Assembly (NCBI RefSeq): GCF_025751575.1
Contig: NZ_JAOWLA010000023.1
Location: 1-36,527 of the forward strand
Length of the DNA: 36,527 nt
Reading direction: 5' to 3'
Origin: Albidovulum sediminicola
GTDB taxonomy: Bacteria; Pseudomonadota; Alphaproteobacteria; Rhodobacterales; Rhodobacteraceae
The notes below the pieces were generated by a model. The model saw only the letters and a list, made by a program, of their open reading frames with translations, did no database searches and had not been told where the DNA came from. The translations under genes were made by a program, and so were the position numbers. The stretch's first letter is position 1. Every line of letters starts with the position of its first letter. This document shows positions 7,146-27,338 of this stretch, piece after piece.

Positions 7146-7832
7146 ATGCCCACCCCCATGACACTCGTCAGCCACGCGCTTTGCCCTTACGTCCAGCGCA
7201 TCGCCATTGCGCTGGACGAGAAAGGCCTGACCTACGAACGTCGCACCGTGGATCTTTCAAACAAGCCCGCGTGGTTTCTGGAGCTTTCGCCGCTTGGCCG
7301 CACGCCGGTCCTCCAGGTGGGCGAGACCGCGCTTTTCGAGTCCTCGGCGATCCTGGAATTTCTTGAGGATACCCAACCCCATCCCTTGCACCCCAGCGAC
7401 CCAATCGAACGGGCGCTTCACCGCGCCTGGATCGACTTCGGCGCGGAATGCCTGCGCGACATCGCGGCCTTCTACTCGGCCACCGATCACGCCGCGCTCG
7501 ACATGAAGGCCGCCGCGCTGCACGCACGTTTCCGACTACTGGAGATGCATCTGGGGGCCGGCCGCTGGTTTGGCGGCGATCGGTTCAGCCTTGTCGATGC
7601 GGTTTATGCGCCGGTGTTTCGCTATTTCGACAGCTTCGACCGGATCGGAAATTTCGGCGTACTTGACGGCCTGGAACGGGTTCGCGCCTGGCGCGCCAAC
7701 CTTGCCGACCGTCCCTCTGTCCGCCGAGCCGTCGGACCGGAGTATGACAGCGCGCTGGCGGATTTCCTCACGCGGCGCGGCGGCTTGCTTTCGCGGCTGG
7801 CGGAGCAGGCCAGGTTCGCCCAGGCATCGTAG
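7146..7832 (+). CDS. Glutathione S-transferase family protein
   Basis: The 228-residue protein has a thioredoxin-fold N-terminal domain with SHALCPYVQR (Cys13 as catalytic candidate, as in omega/beta-like GSTs). The glutathione-site motif LGRTPVL and LFESSAILEFLED follow. The all-helical C-terminal domain runs from about residue 85 (FGGDRFSLVDAVYAPVFRYF). ATG 7146 is chosen over 7140 because GGAG at 7136-7139 is spaced 6 bases from it. It is cytoplasmic and probably conjugates or deglutathionylates electrophilic substrates. Expression seems to depend on read-through of the terminator immediately upstream, or on a promoter inside the YHS gene. Confidence 0.9.
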   Translation: MPTPMTLVSHALCPYVQRIAIALDEKGLTYERRTVDLSNKPAWFLELSPLGRTPVLQVGETALFESSAILEFLEDTQPHPLHPSDPIERALHRAWIDFGAECLRDIAAFYSATDHAALDMKAAALHARFRLLEMHLGAGRWFGGDRFSLVDAVYAPVFRYFDSFDRIGNFGVLDGLERVRAWRANLADRPSVRRAVGPEYDSALADFLTRRGGLLSRLAEQARFAQAS

Positions 7833-7852
7833 CAACGAAATTTGAACTGCAC

Positions 7853-8449
7853 ATGGGACACAAGGCAATTGAACCGCACGCGAGTCATCGGCACCGGCGA
7901 CGTCCGCATGCCGTCACCTTCGCCAGGCTGACCGAGGTTTCCCCGGATCTGCTCGCCGCCCACATGTCCGATCCGCGCATGGCAGCGCACATGCCGCTCC
8001 TGACCGAGCCTTGGGACCGGGGCGTCGCGGAGCGATTCGTCGCCGCCAAGGAAGCTTGCTGGCAGCGCGACGGGCTTGGGCACTGGGCGTTCCTTGCGGA
8101 CGGCCTCTACGTTGGCTGGGGCGGTTTTCAGAAAGAGGGTGAGGAGTGGGATTTCGGTCTTGTCCTGCGCCCTGCAGCTTTCGGCCTCGGGGCGCTGATC
8201 ACGCGCCAGGCCCTTGAGTTTGCCCGCGCGGACCCGCGCATTCCCTTCGTGACTTTCCTGTTGCCGCCCTCGCGTCGAAACCTTGGCGCACTCACGCGCC
8301 TCGGCGCCCGGTTTGAGGGAGAGGTTGTCGAGGCCGGTGCGGCCTTTCGGAAGTATCGCCTCGAAACGCCATGCACCCGGATTTCGTATCCAAAGGGTGC
8401 TGGCGATGCGCCGAGCAGTCGCCGGAGTGGCACCGCAGCGATCCCTTAG
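7853..8449 (+). CDS. GNAT-family N-acetyltransferase
   Basis: Roughly 198 residues with the layout of RimJ/RimL-like acetyltransferases: ARLTEVSPDLLAAHMSDPR at the start of the fold, GHWAFLADGLYVGWGGFQKE as the beta strands, and FGLGALITRQALEFA at the acetyl-CoA site. The expected Q/R-x-x-G-x-G/A loop appears as AFGLGALI. The acceptor is unknown. The first 20 residues are basic and poorly conserved-looking, and no good ribosome binding site precedes ATG 7853, so the true start may be nearer the domain. It is 20 bp after the GST gene and may be co-transcribed. A hairpin at 8483-8508 follows. Confidence 0.75.
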   Translation: MGHKAIEPHASHRHRRRPHAVTFARLTEVSPDLLAAHMSDPRMAAHMPLLTEPWDRGVAERFVAAKEACWQRDGLGHWAFLADGLYVGWGGFQKEGEEWDFGLVLRPAAFGLGALITRQALEFARADPRIPFVTFLLPPSRRNLGALTRLGARFEGEVVEAGAAFRKYRLETPCTRISYPKGAGDAPSSRRSGTAAIP

Positions 8450-8482
8450 GTCGATGTTCCGCAGCCCCGACGACAGCGCGAT

Positions 8483-8508
8483 AGTGCTGGGGGTTTAAGC
8501 CCAGCACT
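8483..8508. terminator. 9-bp hairpin between convergent genes
   Basis: AGTGCTGGG (8483-8491) and CCCAGCACT (8500-8508) form a perfect stem with an 8-base loop. It lies between the converging acetyltransferase and dehydrogenase genes, consistent with a bidirectional terminator, though no T tract is present. Confidence 0.6.
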
Positions 8509-8630
8509 GCGTGGTTGCGAAGGCCGGCGCTCGTGGCGATGGGCTGCTTTCTGGACCGGGGCCGATCGAAGAGATCTCCGCGTTCACGGGAATACCCAAG
8601 GGCGGGAGCCGCTGGCAGAACCGGTCTCTC

Positions 8631-11042
8631 TCACGCCTTCTGACGTGCGTTGGCGGCATCCCACGCGGGTTCTTCCAGCACCGTGAAGCGGTGGCGTTCG
8701 CCAAGGACGACCACTTCGAGGTCGCCGGAGACCTCGGGGTTCACATAGGCGAAGGCGAGGCTCTTTCCGGTCGCGTGGCCATAGCCGCCAGAGGTGCAGA
8801 CCCCAACGACCCGGTTGCCCTGCATGACCGCCTCCCCGCCGTAGATATCGCAGTCGGTGGCCGCGACCGCTCCGTAGACCAGCCTTGTCGCGACGCCCTT
8901 ATGGCGCACCGCCTCTGTTGCCTCGCGCCCGCGGAAGTCGCCCTTTTCGGGCGCGTAGAAGCGGGCGCAGTCAGCCTCGATCAGAGTGATCTCATTGGTC
9001 AGTTCCGCACCGTAACCGCGATAGGCTTTCTCCATCCGCAGGCTATTGACCGCGAGCGCACCGAAATCGGCGATGCCATGCGCCACGCCAGAGGTCCAGA
9101 TCGCATCGTAAAGCCGCGCCAACGCCCCCATCGGTGCGTGGAGTTCCCAGCCCAGTTCGCCCACGTAGGTCACGCGCAGCGCGCGGACCGGCACGCCCGC
9201 GATGGTTATCTCCTGCCCGGATAGCCAGCGGAACGCCGCGTTGGACAAATCCGCGTCGGTCAGCGGCGCGAGCACCTCCCGCGCTTTCGGGCCAGCCACG
9301 ACAATCATCCCAAGGTCGTCGGTCACATTTGCGATGGTCACGTCATCCCCCGCCGCGAAGCGCAGATGGTCAATCGCCTGACGCTCGCTCCCCGCGCCCG
9401 AAAGCACGTAGAACCGATCGGGTCCCAGCCGCGTGATCGTCCATTCGCCCTCGACCCGGCCGCCGTCAGACAACACATGGGTCAAGGCGATACCGCCCGG
9501 CCGCTTCGGCAGTCGGTTGGCCGTCAGACGGTCGAGAAGCGCCTCGGCGCCCGGGCCGGTCACATCGAACTTCGCAAAGCTTGACAGGTCCATGATGCCG
9601 ACGCGCTCTCGCACCGCCCGGCATTCGGTCGCCACCAGATCGAAGACGTTGTTGCGCCGGAACTGGAGTTTTTCGACGAAGCCCGCAGGGGCGAAATACT
9701 TCGGCCGCTCCCATCCGTGGACCTCGGTGTAGGCGGCGCCCTTGGCCTTCAGCCGCTCATAAAGCGGCGTCACGCGGCTGGGGCGGCCGGCCTGGATCTC
9801 GCGTCCCGGCAACGGGGTCTCGAACATGTTGTGATAGTCGTCGAAGCTCTTGGCACGGGTGTAGGCGGCGTCGGCATAGCGGCCGAAGCGGCGTGGATCG
9901 ACGCTGGCCATGTTGATCTCGGCGTTGCCGTGAACCATCCACTGAGCGAGGTACTTTCCGCACCCTGCGCCCTGGGCGATGCCAATCGAGGAGCCGCAGC
10001 ATTGCCAGACGTTCGGAACCCCATGGGCCGGTCCGACAAGCGGATTGCCGTCGGGCGTGTGCGGGATTGCGCCGTTGATGACACGCTTGATGCCCGCTTC
10101 CGCGAAGATCGGCATCCGTTCCAGCGCCCTTTCGAGCCAGGGCGCAATGCGATCGATATCGCCTTCGAAAAGTTCGTTCTCGCTTTGCCACTCGGGCCAG
10201 CCGCCCCGCGCGGCCCAGGCCTCTTTCGCCCCGGTGTGCTCATAGATACCCACCAGGCCCGCCTTCTGCTCCTGCCGATAGTAGCCGGCCGTCACCGGAT
10301 CGCGCATGACCGGCAGTTCGGTGTCGATGCCCTTGAACGCCGCAAGCGGCTCGGTCACGAGATACTGGTGCTCCATGTTGCTGATGGGCGTGTCGACGCC
10401 GAGCCAGGATCCCACTTCGCGCGCGTAGCAGCCGCCAGCGTTGACGACGTGTTCGCAGATGACCTTGCCTTGCTCGGTCACCACCTCGAATTCGCCCGAG
10501 GGCAGGCGGTTGATGCCGGTTACCCGATTGCGCCGAATGATCGTCGCGCCCAGTTGCCGCGCGCCTGCCGCCATGGCGTTGCAGGCGCTGGCCGGATCGA
10601 CATGCCCGTCCATCGTCGTATGCGCCCCGGCGAGGATACCGTCAGTGACAAGCCATGGGTTCAGTTCCTTGATCCGGTCCGGACCGATGATCTCCATCTC
10701 GAAGCCGATATTGGCGGCGAACCCGGCGACATGGCGGAACCAGTCGACCTCTTCGGGGGTGGTGGCGAGCCGGATGCCGCCGCAGCCGTGCCAGCCGGTC
10801 GGGTGGCCGGTCAGTTTCTCCAGCCGCGGATAGAGCGTGTTGGAATAGTGGTGGATCTTGGCCATGTTGTAGTTGCCGATGAAGGACGGGCACTGCCCGG
10901 CCGCATGCCAGGTCGAACCGCTGGTCAGTTCGCCCTTCTCGATCAGCAGCACATCCTTCCAGCCCTCCTCGGCCAGATGATAGGCAAGGCCCACCCCCAT
11001 CATGCCGCCACCAACGATCACGACCCTTGCATGTGACTGCAT
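8631..11042 (-). CDS. Dimethylglycine/sarcosine-dehydrogenase-like FAD-GcvT protein
   Basis: The 803-residue enzyme has an N-terminal DAO-type FAD domain (VVIVGGGMMGVGLAYHLAE near the start, then LTSGSTWHAAGQ). The His in STWHAAG (residue 46) is the usual covalent FAD site of dimethylglycine dehydrogenase. It is followed by an FAO-M linker and a C-terminal aminomethyltransferase (GcvT) half (from about residue 430; GELGWELHAP, NSLRMEKAYRGYGAELTNE). The family oxidatively demethylates N-methylated glycines and passes the one-carbon unit to tetrahydrofolate. It has no signal peptide. ATG 11042 is preferred over TTG 11048, with GGAAAGG upstream. It begins 24 bp after the MttB-family gene, so one operon is likely, acting after removal of a first methyl group from a quaternary amine. 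Confidence 0.9.
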   Translation of the reverse strand: MQSHARVVIVGGGMMGVGLAYHLAEEGWKDVLLIEKGELTSGSTWHAAGQCPSFIGNYNMAKIHHYSNTLYPRLEKLTGHPTGWHGCGGIRLATTPEEVDWFRHVAGFAANIGFEMEIIGPDRIKELNPWLVTDGILAGAHTTMDGHVDPASACNAMAAGARQLGATIIRRNRVTGINRLPSGEFEVVTEQGKVICEHVVNAGGCYAREVGSWLGVDTPISNMEHQYLVTEPLAAFKGIDTELPVMRDPVTAGYYRQEQKAGLVGIYEHTGAKEAWAARGGWPEWQSENELFEGDIDRIAPWLERALERMPIFAEAGIKRVINGAIPHTPDGNPLVGPAHGVPNVWQCCGSSIGIAQGAGCGKYLAQWMVHGNAEINMASVDPRRFGRYADAAYTRAKSFDDYHNMFETPLPGREIQAGRPSRVTPLYERLKAKGAAYTEVHGWERPKYFAPAGFVEKLQFRRNNVFDLVATECRAVRERVGIMDLSSFAKFDVTGPGAEALLDRLTANRLPKRPGGIALTHVLSDGGRVEGEWTITRLGPDRFYVLSGAGSERQAIDHLRFAAGDDVTIANVTDDLGMIVVAGPKAREVLAPLTDADLSNAAFRWLSGQEITIAGVPVRALRVTYVGELGWELHAPMGALARLYDAIWTSGVAHGIADFGALAVNSLRMEKAYRGYGAELTNEITLIEADCARFYAPEKGDFRGREATEAVRHKGVATRLVYGAVAATDCDIYGGEAVMQGNRVVGVCTSGGYGHATGKSLAFAYVNPEVSGDLEVVVLGERHRFTVLEEPAWDAANARQKA

Positions 11043-18252: not shown

Positions 18253-19746
18253 TCAGGCGGCCGCAGTGACCGCGAACTCGGTCATCATGCCGGTTGCCAG
18301 ATGCGGCATGTGGTGGCAGTGCAGCATCCAGCGCGCGGCCTCGCCCGCGTCGAGCGCGACTGTCACCATCGACATCGGCGGGACATAGACCGTATCGCGC
18401 ATTGCGCCGGAGAGGCGGCGGCCGTTGATCTCGACCACCTGAAAGACATGCCCGTGCAGATGCATCGGATGCCCCATCATCGACATGTTGTGGAACATCA
18501 GTTCCACCCTCTCGCCGGATCGGGCGCGCACCGGGGCGTGATTGCCCCAGGTTTGCCCGTCGATCGTCCAGACATAGGGCTGCATGGACCCGCCGAGCAT
18601 GAGCATCCGGTTGCGATCGACGGCGCGCGCCGGCAGGCCGCCCCTGGCAACCAGGCGCGCCTCCTGCGCCAGGTCGATGTCGAAGGCCGGGGCCTCCGCA
18701 TCCGCCAGTGGCTCGATCCGGCGAATATCGGCCCCCTGCGTCGCCAGGATAAGCCCGGTGCGTTCCCGCGCGCCTTCCCGCACCGCAAGGATCGGCCAGG
18801 CACCGCCTTCGTTCGGCAGATCGATCTCGATGTCGAGGCGCTGGCCCATCGCCACGCCGAAGCGGTTGCCTGGCAGCGGCTCCACGCCATGCCCGTCCAC
18901 CGCCACCAGACGCGACGCGGCGGTTCCGGTGTCGATCCAGAACACGGTCGCGGCGGAGGCGTTGATCACACGCAGCCGGACGCGTCCGCCGCGCTCGACG
19001 CTCACCACCTCAGGGTCGGCCAGCGTGCGGTCGTTCGCGAGATAGGCATCCCAATCGTAGTCGTTGAGGTCCATCTCCATCGCCATGCCGCCCATCGCCA
19101 TGCCTGCCATACCAGGTGCCATAGTGGATGGATCAGTAGGCGCGTCGGGTGCCATGCCCTGAGCCCCGTGCCCGCCGTCATGTCCGCCGCCATGGCCACC
19201 GCCATGGCCGCCGGTGATCTCTGCCAGAACCTCCTCGGGGTCCTTGAAGGAGAAGTCGTGCAGGAACAGCACCACCTCTTGCCGGTCTTCGGCCGCCTCC
19301 TCGGCCGAGCGCACGATCAATGGCGCGGCCAGCAGCCGCATCTCCTGCACGGGGATATGGCTGTGCATCCAGTGCGTGCCCGTCCGCGGAACGAAGTCGT
19401 AGTCGCGCGTCTCGCCCGGGGCGAGCGTGGGCATCGGCATGTCGGGCACACCGTCCTGCACATTGGGCGGGATCTGCCCGTGCCAATGCACAATGGTCGG
19501 CTGATCGAGCGCGTTCGTCAGCGCCACCCGAAACGGTGCCCCCGGATCCAGGATGAGGCCTTGGCCGCCGTCGGACCGCGCCAAGCCCCAGACACTGGCG
19601 GCTCGGCCGTTCACCTCGATGGTCCGGCGCACCGCTGACAGCGCGACGGGCGCGGCGGTCTGGGCCCGCGCAACGGCGGGAAACCGGGAAACCGCGCATG
19701 CGGCGCCCCCTGCGGCCAGGAGGCCGCGTCTCGTGAATGTCGTCAT
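18253..19746 (-). CDS. Tat-exported multicopper oxidase (CueO/CopA-like)
   Basis: The 497-residue protein starts with a twin-arginine signal (TFTRRGLLAAGGAAC). Its cupredoxin domains carry all four copper motifs: HWHG (87-90), HSH (128-130), HPMHLHG in the C-terminal domain, and HCHHMPHLATGM (476-487), in which Cys477, His482 and Met487 are the type 1 copper ligands. Between domains 1 and 2 lies a His-rich stretch (about 181-193, GGHGGGH units) followed by a Met-rich stretch (about 198-225). Such regions typically bind Cu(I) in CueO and CopA. It should oxidise Cu(I) in the periplasm. GAGGAGA precedes ATG 19746. It follows the small secreted protein gene by 68 bp. Confidence 0.95.
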   Translation of the reverse strand: MTTFTRRGLLAAGGAACAVSRFPAVARAQTAAPVALSAVRRTIEVNGRAASVWGLARSDGGQGLILDPGAPFRVALTNALDQPTIVHWHGQIPPNVQDGVPDMPMPTLAPGETRDYDFVPRTGTHWMHSHIPVQEMRLLAAPLIVRSAEEAAEDRQEVVLFLHDFSFKDPEEVLAEITGGHGGGHGGGHDGGHGAQGMAPDAPTDPSTMAPGMAGMAMGGMAMEMDLNDYDWDAYLANDRTLADPEVVSVERGGRVRLRVINASAATVFWIDTGTAASRLVAVDGHGVEPLPGNRFGVAMGQRLDIEIDLPNEGGAWPILAVREGARERTGLILATQGADIRRIEPLADAEAPAFDIDLAQEARLVARGGLPARAVDRNRMLMLGGSMQPYVWTIDGQTWGNHAPVRARSGERVELMFHNMSMMGHPMHLHGHVFQVVEINGRRLSGAMRDTVYVPPMSMVTVALDAGEAARWMLHCHHMPHLATGMMTEFAVTAAA

Positions 19747-19814
19747 CTTCGTCTCCTCGGGCCGCATTGGCCCGGTTGTAATGGGGGGATATGGCCCTTG
19801 TGGACCTGGCCTGT

Positions 19815-20153
19815 TCAGACGAAGACCGCCCTTGGCGGACGTTCGTCCACCTCCGGCACCGTTCCATGCGGCGCGATCCACCGGGCCATCACGAACCCGT
19901 CCCAGCGCCAACGCAACCTGAGGGGATGGTCGCGCAGCACCGAAAACTCAACGGTGGCCGCACAGTAGATCTGGCAGGCAACGGCTCCGCCATGGCGCGT
20001 GGTCTCTTGCGGGCTGTGCATTCCCATGTGACCGCCCCAGTCCGCTCTGGCATGCCGATCGACGGCATTGGCCGCTACGCCGTGCGACAGCGGTGCCGCG
20101 ACCAGTGTCGCGAGAAGGAGAATCGACAGGGCAATCGCCAGGAAACGCTGCAT
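19815..20153 (-). CDS. Small secreted His/Met/Cys protein, copper context
   Basis: A 112-residue protein with an N-terminal signal peptide (MQRFLAIALSILLLATLVAAPLSHG). A short metal-ligand-rich segment follows (GGHMGMHSPQETTRHGG), then ACQIYCA with Cys60 and Cys64. The C-terminal half is rich in Arg and Trp (LRLRWRWDGF) and ends in a basic/aromatic tail. I do not recognise a named family; it resembles small periplasmic proteins found beside copper oxidases. It stands between the HMA chaperone and the multicopper oxidase on the same strand, which suggests a copper-binding or copper-delivery job. No strong ribosome binding site precedes ATG 20153. Confidence 0.7.
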   Translation of the reverse strand: MQRFLAIALSILLLATLVAAPLSHGVAANAVDRHARADWGGHMGMHSPQETTRHGGAVACQIYCAATVEFSVLRDHPLRLRWRWDGFVMARWIAPHGTVPEVDERPPRAVFV

Positions 20154-20323
20154 GGGACTGAGGATAGAACGGTTTCCGGCACCTCTGCATCAAGTCTTCG
20201 TAGGGTGTGCGGGTGGACCGCTCTTGTGCCGCGCGGCCCACGCGATCGTTTTCAGTTTGCCGCATGGTCGGGGCTGTGCCCATCCGTTCTAGTTTGGCGC
20301 TCGCCTGGCACCATTTGCCCCCG

Positions 20324-20524
20324 TCACGCGGCGTCGCGGGTGGCGGGGTAGCCTGCCTCGGCGAGCACCGCCTCGATCTCGGCACGCGCGGCCGAGGTCT
20401 CGACCGCGATGGCGCGGTTCTCGGGGTCAGCTTTGACGACAGCGCCCTTGTCGACCGACTGGATCGCCTTCGTCACGCTCCGGGCGCAGCCGAAGCAGGT
20501 GAAGTGCGGGATGTGGAATTGCAT
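20324..20524 (-). CDS. HMA-domain copper chaperone-like protein
   Basis: The 66-residue protein is a single heavy-metal-associated domain with HFTCFGCARSVTKAIQ (Cys10, Cys13 as the CxxC metal site), then VETSAARAEIEAVLAEAGY. This is CopZ-like in length and layout, so a cytosolic Cu(I) carrier is likely. GGGAGG is well placed before ATG 20524. A MerR-type promoter lies 30-60 bp upstream. No copper P-type ATPase or MerR regulator is present in the window. The 170 bp between its stop and the next gene shows nothing convincing. Confidence 0.9.
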   Translation of the reverse strand: MQFHIPHFTCFGCARSVTKAIQSVDKGAVVKADPENRAIAVETSAARAEIEAVLAEAGYPATRDAA

Positions 20525-20554
20525 GTTTGCCTCCCTTGTTTGCTTGGCGAGGCA

Positions 20555-20586
20555 AGACCTGGGCGCTCCCAGCATTGGAGGGTCAA
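20555..20586 (-). promoter_or_regulatory. CueR/MerR-type metal-responsive promoter
   Basis: Read on the minus strand, TTGACC (20586-20581) is followed by the imperfect dyad CTCCAATGCTGGGAG (20580-20566). A CAGGTC box comes 19 bp after TTGACC. The 19-bp spacer with a dyad inside it and the TTGACC-CTCC start are hallmarks of CueR-type copper promoters. It sits directly upstream of the HMA chaperone, fitting copper-induced transcription of the chaperone, small protein and oxidase. Confidence 0.55.
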
Positions 20587-20829
20587 GAGAGGCGTTCAGA
20601 TTCTTTTTCTCGCGGGCGGAATCGGCCCTGGCCCTACCGATCCCGCGCATCGGAGAACGCGTGCAAGGCGGGCGCCGCGCTGACCTTCGGGCCGGGGGCA
20701 GGTCTCAGGTTGCGGCGACCGTGATAGGGTTCGACACCCGCACGCGAGCGATGATGCGGTGCGCTGAAGCCGTTCCAATGGGGCGTACGGCCGGGCGCGT
20801 GTTGTCCCGGAACGCCAGAGCCTGCACCT
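20587..20829. other. Intergenic stretch without a recognisable gene
   Basis: Together with the promoter region this gives about 305 bases between the HMA gene and the ankyrin gene. I see no conserved small ORF, hairpin with T tract or repeat here. It must contain the 3' end of the ankyrin transcript. Confidence 0.4.
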
Positions 20830-21504
20830 TTAGTCTAGGCTTTCCAGGCGCTCGACCATCTTCTGGAACCCCCGCGCCCGCGCATGCTGAAGCGGTGACA
20901 CGCCGTCGCGATCGGCCAGTGTCCGGTCGGCGCCGGCCTCAAGCAAGGCATCTAGAACGGCCAGGTGGTCGGGCCCGCCGTCGCCCAGGACAACCGCCTC
21001 CATCACCGCCGTCCAGTGCAGGTTGTTGATGTGATCAAGCGGTGCGCCCGCCGCGATCAGGCGCCGCACCACCTCGACATGACCCAGATGTGCCGCCGCG
21101 ATCAGCGCGGTGCCCTCATAGGGGCTGGTCGTCAGGCCGGGATCGTTGCCAAGCGCGATGGCCAAGGACATCAGCGCGGGATCGTCCGCAACCGCCGCGA
21201 TGGTCACCACGTCGTAGGCGCGGCCCTCAAGCGCGTTCATATCGGCCCCGGCCTCGGCAAGCGCCCGCAGCGCCTCGTCCTGCGAGGCGAAGGCCGCGAC
21301 ATGGGCCGGGGTACGCCCCCTGGGATCACGCGCATCGATCTCGGCACCCTCAGACAGAAGCCGCCGGATCGCCTCCACATCGCCTGCATGCGCAGCTTGG
21401 AAAAGCCCGTCATAGGCGGCAACCTCGCCCGCGGACGGCGCTGTTTGCGCGTCCGCTGCCGCAGACAGGCTGGCCAGAGCCACGATCAGCGCCAAACGTC
21501 TCAT
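20830..21504 (-). CDS. Exported ankyrin-repeat protein
   Basis: The 224-residue protein has a signal peptide (MRRLALIVALASLSAAADAQT) and then ankyrin repeats. Recognisable units are YDGLFQAAHAGDVEAIRRLL, RTPAHVAAFASQDEALRALAEAGADMN, TALIAAAHLGHVEVVRRLIAAGAPLD and HLAVLDALLEAGADRTLADRDG. Such exported ankyrin proteins are presumed to bind other periplasmic proteins; in some bacteria they protect against peroxide beside catalase, but no catalase is here. It is the last gene of the kinase/regulator/HbpS-like run, 69 bp after the HbpS-like stop. Confidence 0.85.
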   Translation of the reverse strand: MRRLALIVALASLSAAADAQTAPSAGEVAAYDGLFQAAHAGDVEAIRRLLSEGAEIDARDPRGRTPAHVAAFASQDEALRALAEAGADMNALEGRAYDVVTIAAVADDPALMSLAIALGNDPGLTTSPYEGTALIAAAHLGHVEVVRRLIAAGAPLDHINNLHWTAVMEAVVLGDGGPDHLAVLDALLEAGADRTLADRDGVSPLQHARARGFQKMVERLESLD

Positions 21505-21573: not shown

Positions 21574-22056
21574 TCACTCGGCGCCGATGGCGTCAAGTCC
21601 GGCCCGTGCGCAGGCCGCGTCGAGGTCGCCGCCCGGCGCGCCGCCGACACCGATCCCGCCGACGAGCGCGCCACCGATACGGATCGGCAGGCCGCCGGCC
21701 TGGATGACCAGACGCGGGTCCATGTCCCGCAGACCCTCATTCTGCGCATTTTCGCCGATGAACTGGGCAAGACCCGCCGTATCGCGGCCCAGAGAGGCAG
21801 AGGTGAACGCCTTGCCCTGCGCGCTTCCAACGGTGTGGGGGCCCGAATTGTCGGCCTTCAGGTGCACCTTGGTTGCCCCGTCGCGCGCCACGATCGCGAC
21901 GCTCACGGCGTAGCCATCCGCCGCACAGGCCTCAAGCGCGGTATTCGCGGCTTTCGCGGCCAGCGTCAGCGGCAGATAGGGGGCGGTCGGAAGTTCTTGC
22001 GCGGTTGCGGCCAGGGGTGCGGCCAGGGCGGCCATGAAGACGGTAGCTTTCAGCAT
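21574..22056 (-). CDS. Exported GlcG/HbpS-family (DUF336) protein
   Basis: The 160-residue protein has a signal peptide (MLKATVFMAALAAPLAATAQE) and a single DUF336 domain: AANTALEACAADGYAVSVAIVARDGATKVHLKADN, KAFTSASLGRDTAGLAQF, then GGLPIRIGGALVGGIGVGGAPGGDLDAACARAGLDAI. HbpS, a Streptomyces relative, binds heme outside the cell and modulates the SenS/SenR two-component system. Here the gene stands immediately downstream of a sensor kinase/response regulator pair on the same strand, with GAAGGAG before ATG 22056. That arrangement suggests an accessory sensor or target of the pair, which is inference. Confidence 0.88.
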   Translation of the reverse strand: MLKATVFMAALAAPLAATAQELPTAPYLPLTLAAKAANTALEACAADGYAVSVAIVARDGATKVHLKADNSGPHTVGSAQGKAFTSASLGRDTAGLAQFIGENAQNEGLRDMDPRLVIQAGGLPIRIGGALVGGIGVGGAPGGDLDAACARAGLDAIGAE

Positions 22057-22135
22057 GACGGTTCTCCTTCGCTGGTGATGAGGAGAGTCTTACCGGATGC
22101 CGAACCATATCCCCATTCGTGGACCGGCCACGGGG

Positions 22136-22152
22136 CCTCAGTAGTTCTACGG
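22136..22152. promoter_or_regulatory. 17-bp element, copy 2, upstream of the HbpS-like gene
   Basis: On the minus strand this reads CCGTAGAACTACTGAGG, with core GTAG-N2-CTAC. It overlaps the stop codon of the response regulator gene and lies about 80 bp before the HbpS-like ATG. It differs at one base from the copy at 24383-24399 upstream of the kinase. It is a candidate binding site of the adjacent response regulator. Confidence 0.6.
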
Positions 22153-22755
22153 AGTGTCTTCTGCCTCGATCCAGAGACGGGTCATCTCCGCCGGGGATGT
22201 GGTGCCCAGCTTGGCGCCGATCGCGGCGCGATGGCTCTCCACCGTTCGGGGAGAGACGGCCAGGGCCGTGGCAATGTCGCGGGTCGCAAAGCCCCGCGCG
22301 ACAAGCGACAGGACCTCATGTTCGCGGGGCGTCAGGCCGGCGATGAGCGCGCGCGTCTCCTCGCGCTCCGCTTGCTTCGCCGCCGCCTTGCCAAGCGCCG
22401 TCTGGCCCTTCTGTATCGCGTCGATCAGGTCCTGTTCGTCGACCGGCTTCGACAGGAAATCAATGGCGCCGTTGCGGAACGCCTTTCGGCAGGCCTCGAT
22501 ATCACCATGGCCGGAGATCACGACCGTCGGCCAGTCCACGCCCGATCCGGCAAGCCTTTCCTGCAGCTTGAGGCCCGAAATCACGGGCATCCGGATATCC
22601 AGGATCAGGCAACCGGGTTCCAGCGCCGGCAGGGCTTGCAGGAACTCCTCCGGCCCCGGAAAGGATCGCACGTCGATACCCACGGTCGACAACAGAAGGC
22701 AAAGCGCGTCCCGCACCGCCCGGTCGTCATCGACAAGATAGACCGGCGGGCTCAT
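22147..22755 (-). CDS. FixJ/NarL-type response regulator
   Basis: The 202-residue protein has an N-terminal receiver domain (VYLVDDDRAVRDAL, phospho-acceptor Asp53 in CLILDIRMP, Ser81, Lys103 in FLSKPV). A C-terminal LuxR-type helix-turn-helix follows (LTPREHEVLSLVARGFATRDIATALAVSPRTVESHRAAIGAKLG). It is a DNA-binding transcriptional activator phosphorylated by the kinase encoded just upstream; the start overlaps the kinase stop (ATGA at 22752-22755), so both are made together. The length and SPRTVE helix are those of the FixJ/TtrR class. The 17-bp repeats flanking the pair are its probable target. Confidence 0.94.
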   Translation of the reverse strand: MSPPVYLVDDDRAVRDALCLLLSTVGIDVRSFPGPEEFLQALPALEPGCLILDIRMPVISGLKLQERLAGSGVDWPTVVISGHGDIEACRKAFRNGAIDFLSKPVDEQDLIDAIQKGQTALGKAAAKQAEREETRALIAGLTPREHEVLSLVARGFATRDIATALAVSPRTVESHRAAIGAKLGTTSPAEMTRLWIEAEDTP

Positions 22756-24254
22756 TCCGCGACCGCCTGGCGTGGCTGGCCAAGCGGCAGGCTGACCCGG
22801 AAGCGGGCGCCGCCCTTCGTCTCCATCAAGACAAGATCGCCCCCTGCCCGCTCGATCAGCCGCTGACTGAGCGTGAGGCCAAGGCCCGTGCCGTTCTCCC
22901 GCGTGGTCACGAAGGGGGTGAATATCCGGTCGCGAACATCGGCTCGGATGCCGGGGCCGGTGTCAGCGACCTCGACCTCGGCGATGCCATTGTCCACCGT
23001 CAGGGTTACGCTGACCAGGCGTGCGCCATCAACCTCCCTCACCGCATCGAGCCCGTTCCGGATCAGGTTAAAGAGCACCTGTTCAACCTCAACCCGGTCC
23101 ACCACGACGGGCACCCGCAAAGCGGGCACGTTAAGCCGCAGATCGGCGTCGGCCGCCCGGGCCTGATCGCTGAGCAGGGTCTTCGCGACCTGAAGGCAAT
23201 CGCGCAGGTCTATCGGTTCGGGCCGTCTTTGCTGCGGGCGGGTCCAGGTCCTGAGCCGCTCAAGGATGGCCGAGGCGCGCTTGGTCTGGTCGATGACACC
23301 CTCCAGGACCGGAGCAAGCTTGTCGGTGTCACCGCGCATCGCGAGCCGCCGCGCGGCCTGGGCCTGGGCTAGGACCGCCGTCAGCGGTTGGGTCAGTTCA
23401 TGCGCCATGCCGCTGGCCATCTCACCAAGCGCATTGACCCGCGACGCGTGGCTGAGGCGGGATTCGAGCCCACTGAGTTCCGCGCGCCGCTCAGCCTCGC
23501 GCATTTGCGCCCTTTGGCGCATGATCGCCCGCAAGCCGAAGACGATGATGGTGATCAGCGCGAGCGCCATCGCAACACTGCCGGGCGGCAGAAGGTCCGC
23601 CGGTGTCAAGGTCAGTACCGTCTCAAGCAGAAGCGGCTGGGTATTGCTGGAAAGCGCCCGCGCAAACTGCGGCACGGCAAGACCCGCACCGTCTGCCAAC
23701 AGCGGGGTGCCGTCCGGCAAGGACAGTCTGCGCGCTGTCTCGGGGCGACCCCAATAGTCTGAATCGCCGTCGAGAAGGGCTGCGGCATCGATCACCAGCG
23801 CTAGGCCGTATCGGGGTGCATCGCTGTTGGGGCTGCGCTTGACGATCAGATAGGCCCCGGTGTCCCCGGGCCGTTGAACAAGAACCGGAGCACCGTTCGA
23901 GCGCCGGGCGGCATCTCGGATCAGGCCAGCGACATCGTCGCCCGCGACGCCGATCTCCAACACGCCGCGATCCTCGGCCAGCGGGACCAGCAGAACCCCG
24001 ATCACCCTGGGATAGAACCGTATGACCGCGCCTGCCACCTCACGGAAAAGGTCGGGGCGGCTTTCGGCACCGGCAACCGCGATGGCCGAAAGCGCGGTCA
24101 GGTGCGCGTCATGCTGGTCAACACGTTGGGACGCCACGCCATGAAGCCGCGCGCTCTCAGCGGTCAGGGTCGAGAGACGGGACGCGCGCTCGCTCACCCA
24201 GATCGCGGCGAGCGCGAGAAGGCAGGCGAACGCCCAACCGATGAACCATGTCAT
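22752..24254 (-). CDS. Membrane sensor histidine kinase
   Basis: About 500 residues from ATG 24254, though an upstream GTG near 24299 is possible since neither has a strong ribosome binding site. TM1 (about 2-20) and TM2 (about 224-243) enclose a periplasmic sensor region of about 200 residues with no family I can name. The kinase core has an ERRAELSGLESRLSHASRVNALGEMASGMAHELTQPL dimerisation helix-type region, split here as phospho-His285 in MAHELTQPL. The ATPase has N box (FNLIRNGLDA), G1 (VADTGPGI) and G2 (GTGLGL). This is the FixL/DctB-like class with a NarL-type partner. Stimulus unknown; the exported HbpS-like protein downstream is a candidate partner. Confidence 0.92.
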   Translation of the reverse strand: MTWFIGWAFACLLALAAIWVSERASRLSTLTAESARLHGVASQRVDQHDAHLTALSAIAVAGAESRPDLFREVAGAVIRFYPRVIGVLLVPLAEDRGVLEIGVAGDDVAGLIRDAARRSNGAPVLVQRPGDTGAYLIVKRSPNSDAPRYGLALVIDAAALLDGDSDYWGRPETARRLSLPDGTPLLADGAGLAVPQFARALSSNTQPLLLETVLTLTPADLLPPGSVAMALALITIIVFGLRAIMRQRAQMREAERRAELSGLESRLSHASRVNALGEMASGMAHELTQPLTAVLAQAQAARRLAMRGDTDKLAPVLEGVIDQTKRASAILERLRTWTRPQQRRPEPIDLRDCLQVAKTLLSDQARAADADLRLNVPALRVPVVVDRVEVEQVLFNLIRNGLDAVREVDGARLVSVTLTVDNGIAEVEVADTGPGIRADVRDRIFTPFVTTRENGTGLGLTLSQRLIERAGGDLVLMETKGGARFRVSLPLGQPRQAVAE

Positions 24255-24382
24255 CGGATGCGGCAAAGCCCTTTGCGCTGAAGATCTCGTCTCTGTCACC
24301 TGCCCGGCCCGTTCGGGCGACCCCGCGGGGGGTCGCGCTCTGTTGGCGACGATAACATAAGCGGCTGGCCCTGCATTGAAAT

Positions 24383-24399
24383 CCGTAGGACTACTGAGG
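24383..24399. promoter_or_regulatory. 17-bp element, copy 1, upstream of the kinase gene
   Basis: CCGTAGGACTACTGAGG on the plus strand, about 130 bp before the kinase ATG. It matches copy 2 (22136-22152, reverse strand) at 16 of 17 positions and has the same GTAG-N2-CTAC core. The position suggests autoregulation of the two-component genes. Confidence 0.6.
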
Positions 24400-26023: not shown

Positions 26024-26159
26024 GGCTTTTCTCCTTGGCTGATGGGACCAGAATGCCCCGCCCGGGGCCGTTCCGCTTGAGGACAAGCCTTGGAAACCCC
26101 TGTGATCTGCCTTGGATTTTGCTGGGGACGCCAAGCCAAATCTTGGTAGAGTTCATGCC

Positions 26160-27338
26160 ATGGAGCATCGTTTCGCCAACTGCATCCTCGACGACGCGCG
26201 GATGACCTTGACGCGGGGCGGCGCGCCCGTGGCGCTGGAGCCGCGCGTCTTCGACCTGATCCACCTTCTGGTGCGCAATGCCGGGGATCTCGTCACCCGC
26301 GACCGGCTGATCGATGAGGTCTGGCAGGGCCGCATCGTGTCGGAAAGCGCGATTTCGGCCTGCATCGCCGCCGCGCGCCGGGCATTGGGCGACGACGGAA
26401 AGGCGCAGGCGGTGATCCGCACCGTGGCACGGCGCGGGCTGATGCTGGTGGCCGAAGTCGCTTCATCAGCGCCAGAGCCATCCCTTTCCGAACCACCCGC
26501 CATCGTTCAGCGCGTGCGCCACCTTTCCGGAAATCACGGTGAAAGCATCGTCTATGCGGTCAACGGCACCGGGCCGCCGCTCTTGCGCGTCGATGCCCCG
26601 GCCTGGGACATCGAGGCGGAGTGGAACGCCCACTACTGGCGTGATGCGACGGAAGCCCTGGCGCAGTTCTATCGTGTGGCGCGCTTTACCCGGCGTGACT
26701 TCGGGAAAGGGCGCGACGGGGCGCCGAGGATCGACTACGACGCAATGGCGGAAGAGCTTGCGCTTGTGGCCGATGCCGTGGGATTTGACCGCTTCGCGAT
26801 GTTTTCACAGTCGGGCGGCGTCCATGCCGCATTGCGCTTTGCGGCGCGCTACCCGGCCCGTGTCAGCCGGCTGGTGATCGCTGGTGGCTATGTCGAGGGC
26901 CGGTCACGCCGCAGCGGGACGGAGGTGGCGGACGACGCCTTTCGTCATCTCGTGGCCGAAGGCTGGCGTGCGGAGGCCGAGGGGATCGGCGCCGCCTTCA
27001 TGCTTGCCTATCTCCCCGAGGGGCCGCTGGAGGCCATCATGGCCGCGGCCCGCAATTTCCAGGATTCGGTCTCGAAGGAAACCGAACTGGCGCTCAGGGA
27101 TGCGATCAACACGGTGGACAACGGTCCGCTCTTGTCTCAGATCCGATGCCCGACGCTCATCGTCCACGCCCGTCATGACGCCGTGCACCCGCTTTCGGAG
27201 GCCCGCAAGCTTGCAGCCGGGATCGCGGACGCGGAACTGCTTGTCCTCGACACGGCCAACCATCTGCCATTGCCCGGAAACCCTTCGTGGGACGTGTTCC
27301 TCTCGGCCTTTCGCGATTTCCTTGGAACCTCGCCCTGA
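26160..27338 (+). CDS. Winged-helix (CadC/OmpR-type) alpha/beta-hydrolase fusion
   Basis: The 392-residue protein has an OmpR/CadC-like DNA-binding winged helix at about 1-100 (VALEPRVFDLIHLLVRNAGDLVTRDRLIDEVW-type region, here within residues 25-55, then SESAISACIAAARRALGDDG). It is followed by an alpha/beta hydrolase (about 130-390). The nucleophile elbow is FSQSGG with Ser218; Asp340 (HARHDAVHP) and His368 (TANHLPL) complete the triad. No membrane segment joins the domains, unlike CadC. It could be a regulator whose hydrolase domain binds or cleaves its own effector. ATG 26160 is taken because the domain begins there. The divergent small gene is a candidate target. Confidence 0.85.
   Translation: MEHRFANCILDDARMTLTRGGAPVALEPRVFDLIHLLVRNAGDLVTRDRLIDEVWQGRIVSESAISACIAAARRALGDDGKAQAVIRTVARRGLMLVAEVASSAPEPSLSEPPAIVQRVRHLSGNHGESIVYAVNGTGPPLLRVDAPAWDIEAEWNAHYWRDATEALAQFYRVARFTRRDFGKGRDGAPRIDYDAMAEELALVADAVGFDRFAMFSQSGGVHAALRFAARYPARVSRLVIAGGYVEGRSRRSGTEVADDAFRHLVAEGWRAEAEGIGAAFMLAYLPEGPLEAIMAAARNFQDSVSKETELALRDAINTVDNGPLLSQIRCPTLIVHARHDAVHPLSEARKLAAGIADAELLVLDTANHLPLPGNPSWDVFLSAFRDFLGTSP

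Follow-up and report, generated by a model that had tools for sequence, protein, structure and literature searches.

Several described systems come close to the one reported here. HbpS-SenS-SenR is presented as a redox-sensing system of streptomycetes (PMC4991794, PMC3754957), and the consensus deduced for the SenR site is an imperfect repeat, CGGGCCGCGTCCCG (PMC4991794). EfgA is a DUF336 formaldehyde sensor, described in its report as cytoplasmic and without a conserved genomic context (PMC8153426). Here we analyse a stretch of 36,527 nucleotides from Albidovulum sediminicola (contig NZ_JAOWLA010000023.1, hereafter the window), in which four genes follow one another on the minus strand in the order of transcription: a sensor kinase, a response regulator, an HbpS-like gene (hbpS in the following) and an ankyrin-repeat gene (ank). 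Two near-identical elements, one upstream of the kinase and the other at the junction between the regulator and hbpS, are probably operators of the adjacent FixJ-like response regulator, and comparison with related loci suggests that they make the operon a closed-loop sensing module with positive feedback in this lineage. The literature that was searched, open-licence papers only, yielded no description of this system, and searches with the half-site strings returned nothing relevant by title among the matches listed.

The palindrome upstream of hbpS

A previous reading made from the sequence alone had placed two 17-base-pair (bp) elements in the window, and both are found where it put them, at 24383-24399 on the plus strand (CCGTAGGACTACTGAGG) and at 22136-22152 on the minus strand (CCGTAGAACTACTGAGG). 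Direct comparison confirms the identity of 16 out of 17 bases and the common GTAG-N2-CTAC core that had been described, as well as the proposed layout, with one element upstream of the kinase and the other at the regulator/HbpS junction. Relative to transcription, the sites have opposite orientations, CCGTAGAACTACTGAGG standing before hbpS and CCTCAGTAGTCCTACGG before the kinase. The conserved unit, as defined by the alignment of relatives, is TCCGTAG-N2-CTACGGA, a palindrome of 16 bp. The TGAGG tail, which the sequence-only reading had counted as part of the motif, does not belong to it and follows the HbpS-side site in a single one of the 80 site-bearing loci, the window itself. With up to three mismatches, a pattern derived from the two sites themselves recovers only these two elements in the window (the shuffle expectation is 0.08, and two matches were reached in none of 100 shuffles), and with up to two mismatches they are the only ones in the whole genome (4,128,694 bases in 70 contigs). 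A stem-loop or terminator reading of the palindrome was dropped by eye, given a loop of two bases and no T-run.

For the comparison we used the best 80 of 328 relatives from a scan of named genomes, chosen by kinase similarity, which together with the window make 81 loci. Matches to the kinase, the regulator and HbpS occur together in all 80, which come mainly from Rhodobacterales and Rhizobiales and include two records labelled Burkholderiales (L108 and L152). The junction palindrome scores 12 out of 12 in 46 of the 81 loci, 11 in 27, 10 in seven and 8 in one; none of 810 simulated 150-base stretches attained a score of 10 or more. The search for the motif upstream of orthologous genes, which had been suggested together with the first description of the elements, is thus positive for hbpS in 80 of the 81 loci, and in seven more outside this set that are described below. 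The centre of the palindrome lies 84.5-91.5 bp from the HbpS start in every locus (where several in-frame starts are possible, the one nearest 88 bp was used for the spacing), and when near-copies are removed 66 of 67 hbpS promoters retain it.

The palindrome is not the only fixed feature of this region. Downstream of it lies a half-site with the consensus CTACGRAT, at an offset of 29 in 77 loci and of 30 in the other four, which matches the consensus at all eight positions in 65 loci, at seven in 14 and at six in two; seven or more matches were reached by 1.7% of 1,620 simulations. All 81 loci also have the dinucleotide TA exactly 30 bp downstream of this half-site, counted from its first base. 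We infer that the TA is the start of a -10 element and that CTACGRAT represents a second, proximal half-site.

The HbpS-side site overlaps the end of the regulator gene in the window and in most loci, and the regulator's stop codon is TAG in 72 of 81, so the similarity might be ascribed to chance or to a by-product of the regulator's terminal Pro-stop codons (CCG TAG). We find this explanation hardly credible. The right arm, which lies outside the gene, is equally conserved, and 10 of the 81 sites are located wholly beyond the regulator stop, so that protein coding does not explain the palindrome; the kinase-side site of the window and two orphan sites (see below) stand at no regulator end, and the orphan promoters and the fixed spacing already refute the idea.

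Specificity of the site and its candidate binding protein

The protein most likely to bind the palindrome would be the regulator itself, because its gene is the only one for a DNA-binding protein found at all loci and because the exact palindrome tracks the system in the genomes of the family. Among 198 family genomes, the kinase is found at an expectation value (E) of at most 1e-40 in 11, the source genome included, and the four genes are syntenic in the other 10 (six of these, L017-L022, duplicate DNA already represented in the 80). An HbpS profile at E <= 1e-30 matches 13 of the 198, namely the same 11 and two weak cases (G004 and G048), and at the level of the class the kinase profile matches five of 385 genomes at E <= 1e-60. 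The exact sequence CCGTAGWWCTACGG is present in five of the 198 family genomes, every time at the regulator/HbpS junction: five of the 11 genomes with the system contain it and none of the 187 without, the copy in the source genome being degenerate in the right arm. The reversed control pattern matches many of the 198. A search for a relaxed form of the palindrome in 16 family genomes (10 with and six without the system) gave scattered extra matches, some of them in genomes that lack the system.

These searches lend no support to the wider regulon that the sequence-only reading had suggested looking for. There is no other exact CCGTAGNNCTACNG in the source genome, and of its 26 matches with one mismatch four are the two sites read on both strands; the genes neighbouring the weaker matches were not followed. 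A further argument against a wider regulon, based on stop-free frames, was abandoned because, the genome being G+C-rich, long stop-free frames run through the two true sites as well.

The promoter was then compared with loci that do not belong to the 81. Of 19 plasmid records that contain a related HbpS, seven were retrieved, and all seven fit (site 11-12 out of 12, half-site 8 out of 8, TA 30 bp on). Six of them are new, whereas L175, on a Pseudosulfitobacter plasmid, is 99.95% identical over 8,342 bases around the operon to a member of the set, L143 from Thalassobacter stenotrophicus; this identity across two genera, together with the typing of the L175 plasmid as conjugative, argues for recent horizontal spread. 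A locus from another family of the same class whose kinase is only 35% identical (L156) fits too, and with the six new plasmid loci makes up the seven outside the set. L155 also fits but is identical to L089, so it is no independent test. Three stretches without the complete module have no site scoring at least 10: the 3.7 kilobases of L157, which lack an HbpS gene (identity 38% for the kinase and 42% for the regulator), and the 3.5-kilobase stretches of two distant HbpS genes, L172 and L173, where neither a kinase nor a regulator was matched.

On plasmids of Shinella zoogloeoides (L179) and Roseateles sp. XES5 (L180), hbpS-ank pairs have a complete promoter and no adjacent kinase or regulator. 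Such pairs speak for the alternative that another transcription factor binds the palindrome and that the two-component system is a mere neighbour. We consider this very unlikely, since no other gene recurs at all loci (clusters of open frames beyond the kinase, the regulator, HbpS, the ankyrin protein and overlapping antisense frames reach 18 of the 80 loci at most), the exact palindrome is missing from all the sampled family genomes without the system, and the site also precedes the kinase in two clades. The adjacent regulator is thus the preferred candidate.

The kinase-side site and a proposed circuit

Autoregulation, the other element of the sequence-only reading, is supported in part of the loci: a kinase-side site scoring at least 10 out of 12 is present in 35 of 81, which form two clades including that of the window, and the other clades do not have it. 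The same score was obtained in 0.7% of 810 simulations. The site is found in 29 of 67 loci once near-copies are removed, and in two of five kinase-bearing plasmid stretches. On a regulator tree of 80 rows (L134 was left out because too few columns were filled), its presence requires three changes, as opposed to 26 in shuffles, and one of the three corresponds to L084, which has a site of 9 out of 12 at the same place and was scored as absent. The two clades differ in the distance of the site to the kinase start (about 88 versus about 42 bp) and in the flanking sequence; these differences suggest two separate gains rather than one gain followed by losses, the tree alone fitting both. As 45 of the 46 loci without a kinase-side site keep an HbpS-side site of at least 10, driving hbpS is in all likelihood the general role of the element, and control of the kinase operon by its own regulator a lineage-specific one.

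In the kinase promoters of the window's clade (21 loci), the palindrome itself occupies the proximal position, with TATGNT located 29 bp after the half-site. The centre of the window's kinase-side site is about 90 bp upstream of the GTG at which we place the kinase start, as in the hbpS promoter. In the other clade, that of L022-L025, the stretch separating the palindrome from the kinase start contains a conserved CTGCGAT, which resembles a half-site; no clear -10 is seen.

Taken together, the arrangement could operate as follows. A periplasmic small molecule, sensed by a dCACHE domain alone or with HbpS, would switch the kinase, and the phosphorylated regulator would bind TCCGTAG-N2-CTACGGA as a dimer. 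At the hbpS promoter it would occupy both the distal palindrome, whose centre lies some 53 bp before the -10, and the proximal CTACGRAT, which begins some 30 bp before the -10 and adjoins the expected -35. The bound regulator would recruit RNA polymerase to this promoter, internal to the operon, from which hbpS-ank would be transcribed. In this lineage, where one palindrome stands in the proximal position of the kinase promoter, the system would also raise its own level. The result would be a positive feedback loop and, as far as seen, the genome has no other strong site.

Several observations weigh against this model. The kinase-side site falls below 10 out of 12 in 46 of the 81 loci and is absent in three of the five kinase-bearing plasmid stretches; the junction site of L140 is degenerate (8 out of 12); the 80 loci were selected rather than drawn at random, with near-copies among them; and the Shinella and Roseateles records are not among the 19 plasmid matches for the regulator. 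In addition, the other kinase-site clade, with its site about 42 bp from the kinase start, has no recognisable -10, and the regulator could repress there. Extended to the whole system, repression would mean negative autoregulation and an hbpS gene kept silent until the signal arrives, and it draws its support from the L022-L025 clade, in which no -10 fits downstream of the kinase site. We regard this alternative as unlikely because the half-site at hbpS lies just upstream of the expected -35 and the palindrome further upstream, and an operator just upstream of the -35 combined with a site further upstream is a layout typical of activators. Furthermore, the -35 region of the hbpS promoters is poorly conserved whereas the TA is fixed. 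Activation by the regulator is therefore the reading we retain.

Operon genes and comparison with known systems

Table 1. Probable operators, predicted promoter elements and genes of the operon in the window
Feature	Positions	Strand	Remarks
Kinase-promoter operator	24382..24397	-	TCAGTAG-TC-CTACGGA in the kinase direction, followed by TT
Predicted -10 element of the kinase promoter, TATGTT	24354..24359	-	29 bp downstream of the CTACGGAT half-site, counted from its first base
Sensor histidine kinase	22752..24299	-	HisKA and HATPase_c, predicted dCACHE sensor; probable start GTG 24299
Response regulator	22147..22755	-	Receiver and LuxR/GerE-type DNA-binding domain, FixJ-like
Distal operator of the hbpS promoter	22138..22153	-	TCCGTAG-AA-CTACTGA; overlaps the terminal CCG TAG (last codon and stop) of the regulator
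Proximal half-site CCACGAAT	22115..22122	-	Agrees with the consensus CTACGRAT at 7 of 8 positions; lies at an offset of 30 relative to the start of the operator
Predicted -10 element of the hbpS promoter, TAAGAC	22087..22092	-	TA 30 bp downstream of the half-site, counted from its first base
HbpS-like protein	21574..22056	-	PF03928/DUF336; invariant C44, H74 and C149; signal-peptide-like N-terminus judged by eye
Ankyrin-repeat protein	20830..21504	-	Downstream of hbpS; N-terminus resembles a signal peptide by eye; predicted start ATG 21504

The stop of the kinase gene is overlapped by the start of the regulator gene (Table 1). The open frame of the kinase is listed from TTG 24458, and its start was placed further downstream because relatives align from residue 44 or later only. 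A dCACHE fold is predicted for the extracytoplasmic part of its sensor region, which assigns it to the dCACHE sensor kinases; a sequence search with the sensor profile gave no convincing PDB relative, and a fold search with the whole kinase returned mostly catalytic domains among the matches listed. The HbpS-like protein scores 98.6 bits against PF03928, and its cysteine pair and histidine are conserved in 81 of 81 loci. The N-termini suggest that both this protein and the ankyrin-repeat protein are exported.

In 48 of the 81 loci, the window included, hbpS is immediately followed by the ankyrin gene, which was not detected at this position in the other 33, among them Brucella/Ochrobactrum, Agrobacterium, Ensifer and several Paracoccus (L139 ends too early to judge). 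A second ankyrin-repeat gene is found near the operon in L174, L178, L111 and L141. Amidohydrolase, allantoicase or nucleoside deaminase genes lie nearby in L174 and L178, both annotated records, and offer a weak hint of purine-related ligands. In L134 (Sulfitobacter brevis), an insertion appears to interrupt the regulator: its match falls into two parts separated by about 2.5 kilobases (about 7766-10247), and the HbpS promoter is present downstream of the split gene. The locus nearest to the window (L073, kinase 75% identical) comes from a metagenome-assembled genome labelled Rhizobiaceae, a label that may reflect either horizontal transfer or mis-binning. Elsewhere in the window, 26112-27338 (plus strand) encodes a predicted fusion of a Trans_reg_C winged-helix domain with an alpha/beta hydrolase, and 18253-20650 (minus strand), downstream of the operon, a multicopper oxidase and a protein with a heavy-metal-associated domain; neither of the latter two has a match in the stretches from 10 family relatives.

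In several families of the Alphaproteobacteria, a single HbpS subfamily goes with a single kinase-regulator pair and a single promoter, and nothing else accompanies them consistently. As a tentative interpretation, more doubtful than the assignment of the operators, this may be an unrecognised, self-contained and partly plasmid-borne proteobacterial module in which HbpS acts as a co-sensor presenting a captured periplasmic ligand to the dCACHE kinase, the invariant cysteine pair is a possible redox or ligand switch, and the main or only target of the circuit is the circuit itself. If so, a three-component system built on HbpS would have been assembled independently for a second time, here with a promoter that is fully specified. 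The exact operator means that a reporter of the hbpS promoter could be used to screen for the signal. For functional tests, the dCACHE pocket and the invariant cysteines are direct points of attack.

How does this module relate to the described systems? By score it is not FixLJ: the best NCBIfam match of the regulator is FixJ (NF006900), at 174 bits and below the curated cut-off of 255, and that of the kinase is FixL (NF041777), at 157.3 bits over the catalytic half with a cut-off of 850. In addition, unlike in FixL, the N-terminal sensor here is the predicted dCACHE domain. The operators of NarL/LuxR-type regulators are built as 7-2-7, with two inverted 7-bp arms and a 2-bp spacer; the palindrome has the same geometry, and its arms differ in sequence from the NarL heptamer. 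EfgA shares the DUF336 domain family and, according to its report, acts as a small-molecule sensor (PMC8153426). In contrast, the N-terminus of the protein encoded here resembles a signal peptide, its gene stands in a constant two-component context, and its profile matches the EfgA structure with an E of 2.7e-6 only.

The closest parallel is HbpS-SenS-SenR, in which, as described, the gene for a secreted HbpS-fold protein likewise stands beside those for a membrane kinase and a DNA-binding response regulator (PMC4991794, PMC3754957), export being judged here from the N-terminus only. The best solved-structure match of the HbpS profile is indeed HbpS of S. reticuli (3fpv, E 6.4e-30). Nevertheless, the glutamates of its core iron motif E78xxE81 are not conserved, the aligned positions of the family profile not being Glu, and TCCGTAG-N2-CTACGGA is not a SenR-type operator. 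The genes here are arranged as kinase-regulator-hbpS; in Streptomyces the order may be hbpS-senS-senR, as read from the name of the system only. SenR is a response regulator of the LuxR/NarL class, as is the regulator here. SenS is of another kinase type and is not known to carry a dCACHE-like sensor, whereas the kinase here is of the HisKA type with a predicted dCACHE sensor. Because the operator and the iron motif differ, we do not file the system as a member of this group, and the best reading of these comparisons is that it would work like HbpS-SenS-SenR of Streptomyces without belonging to it.
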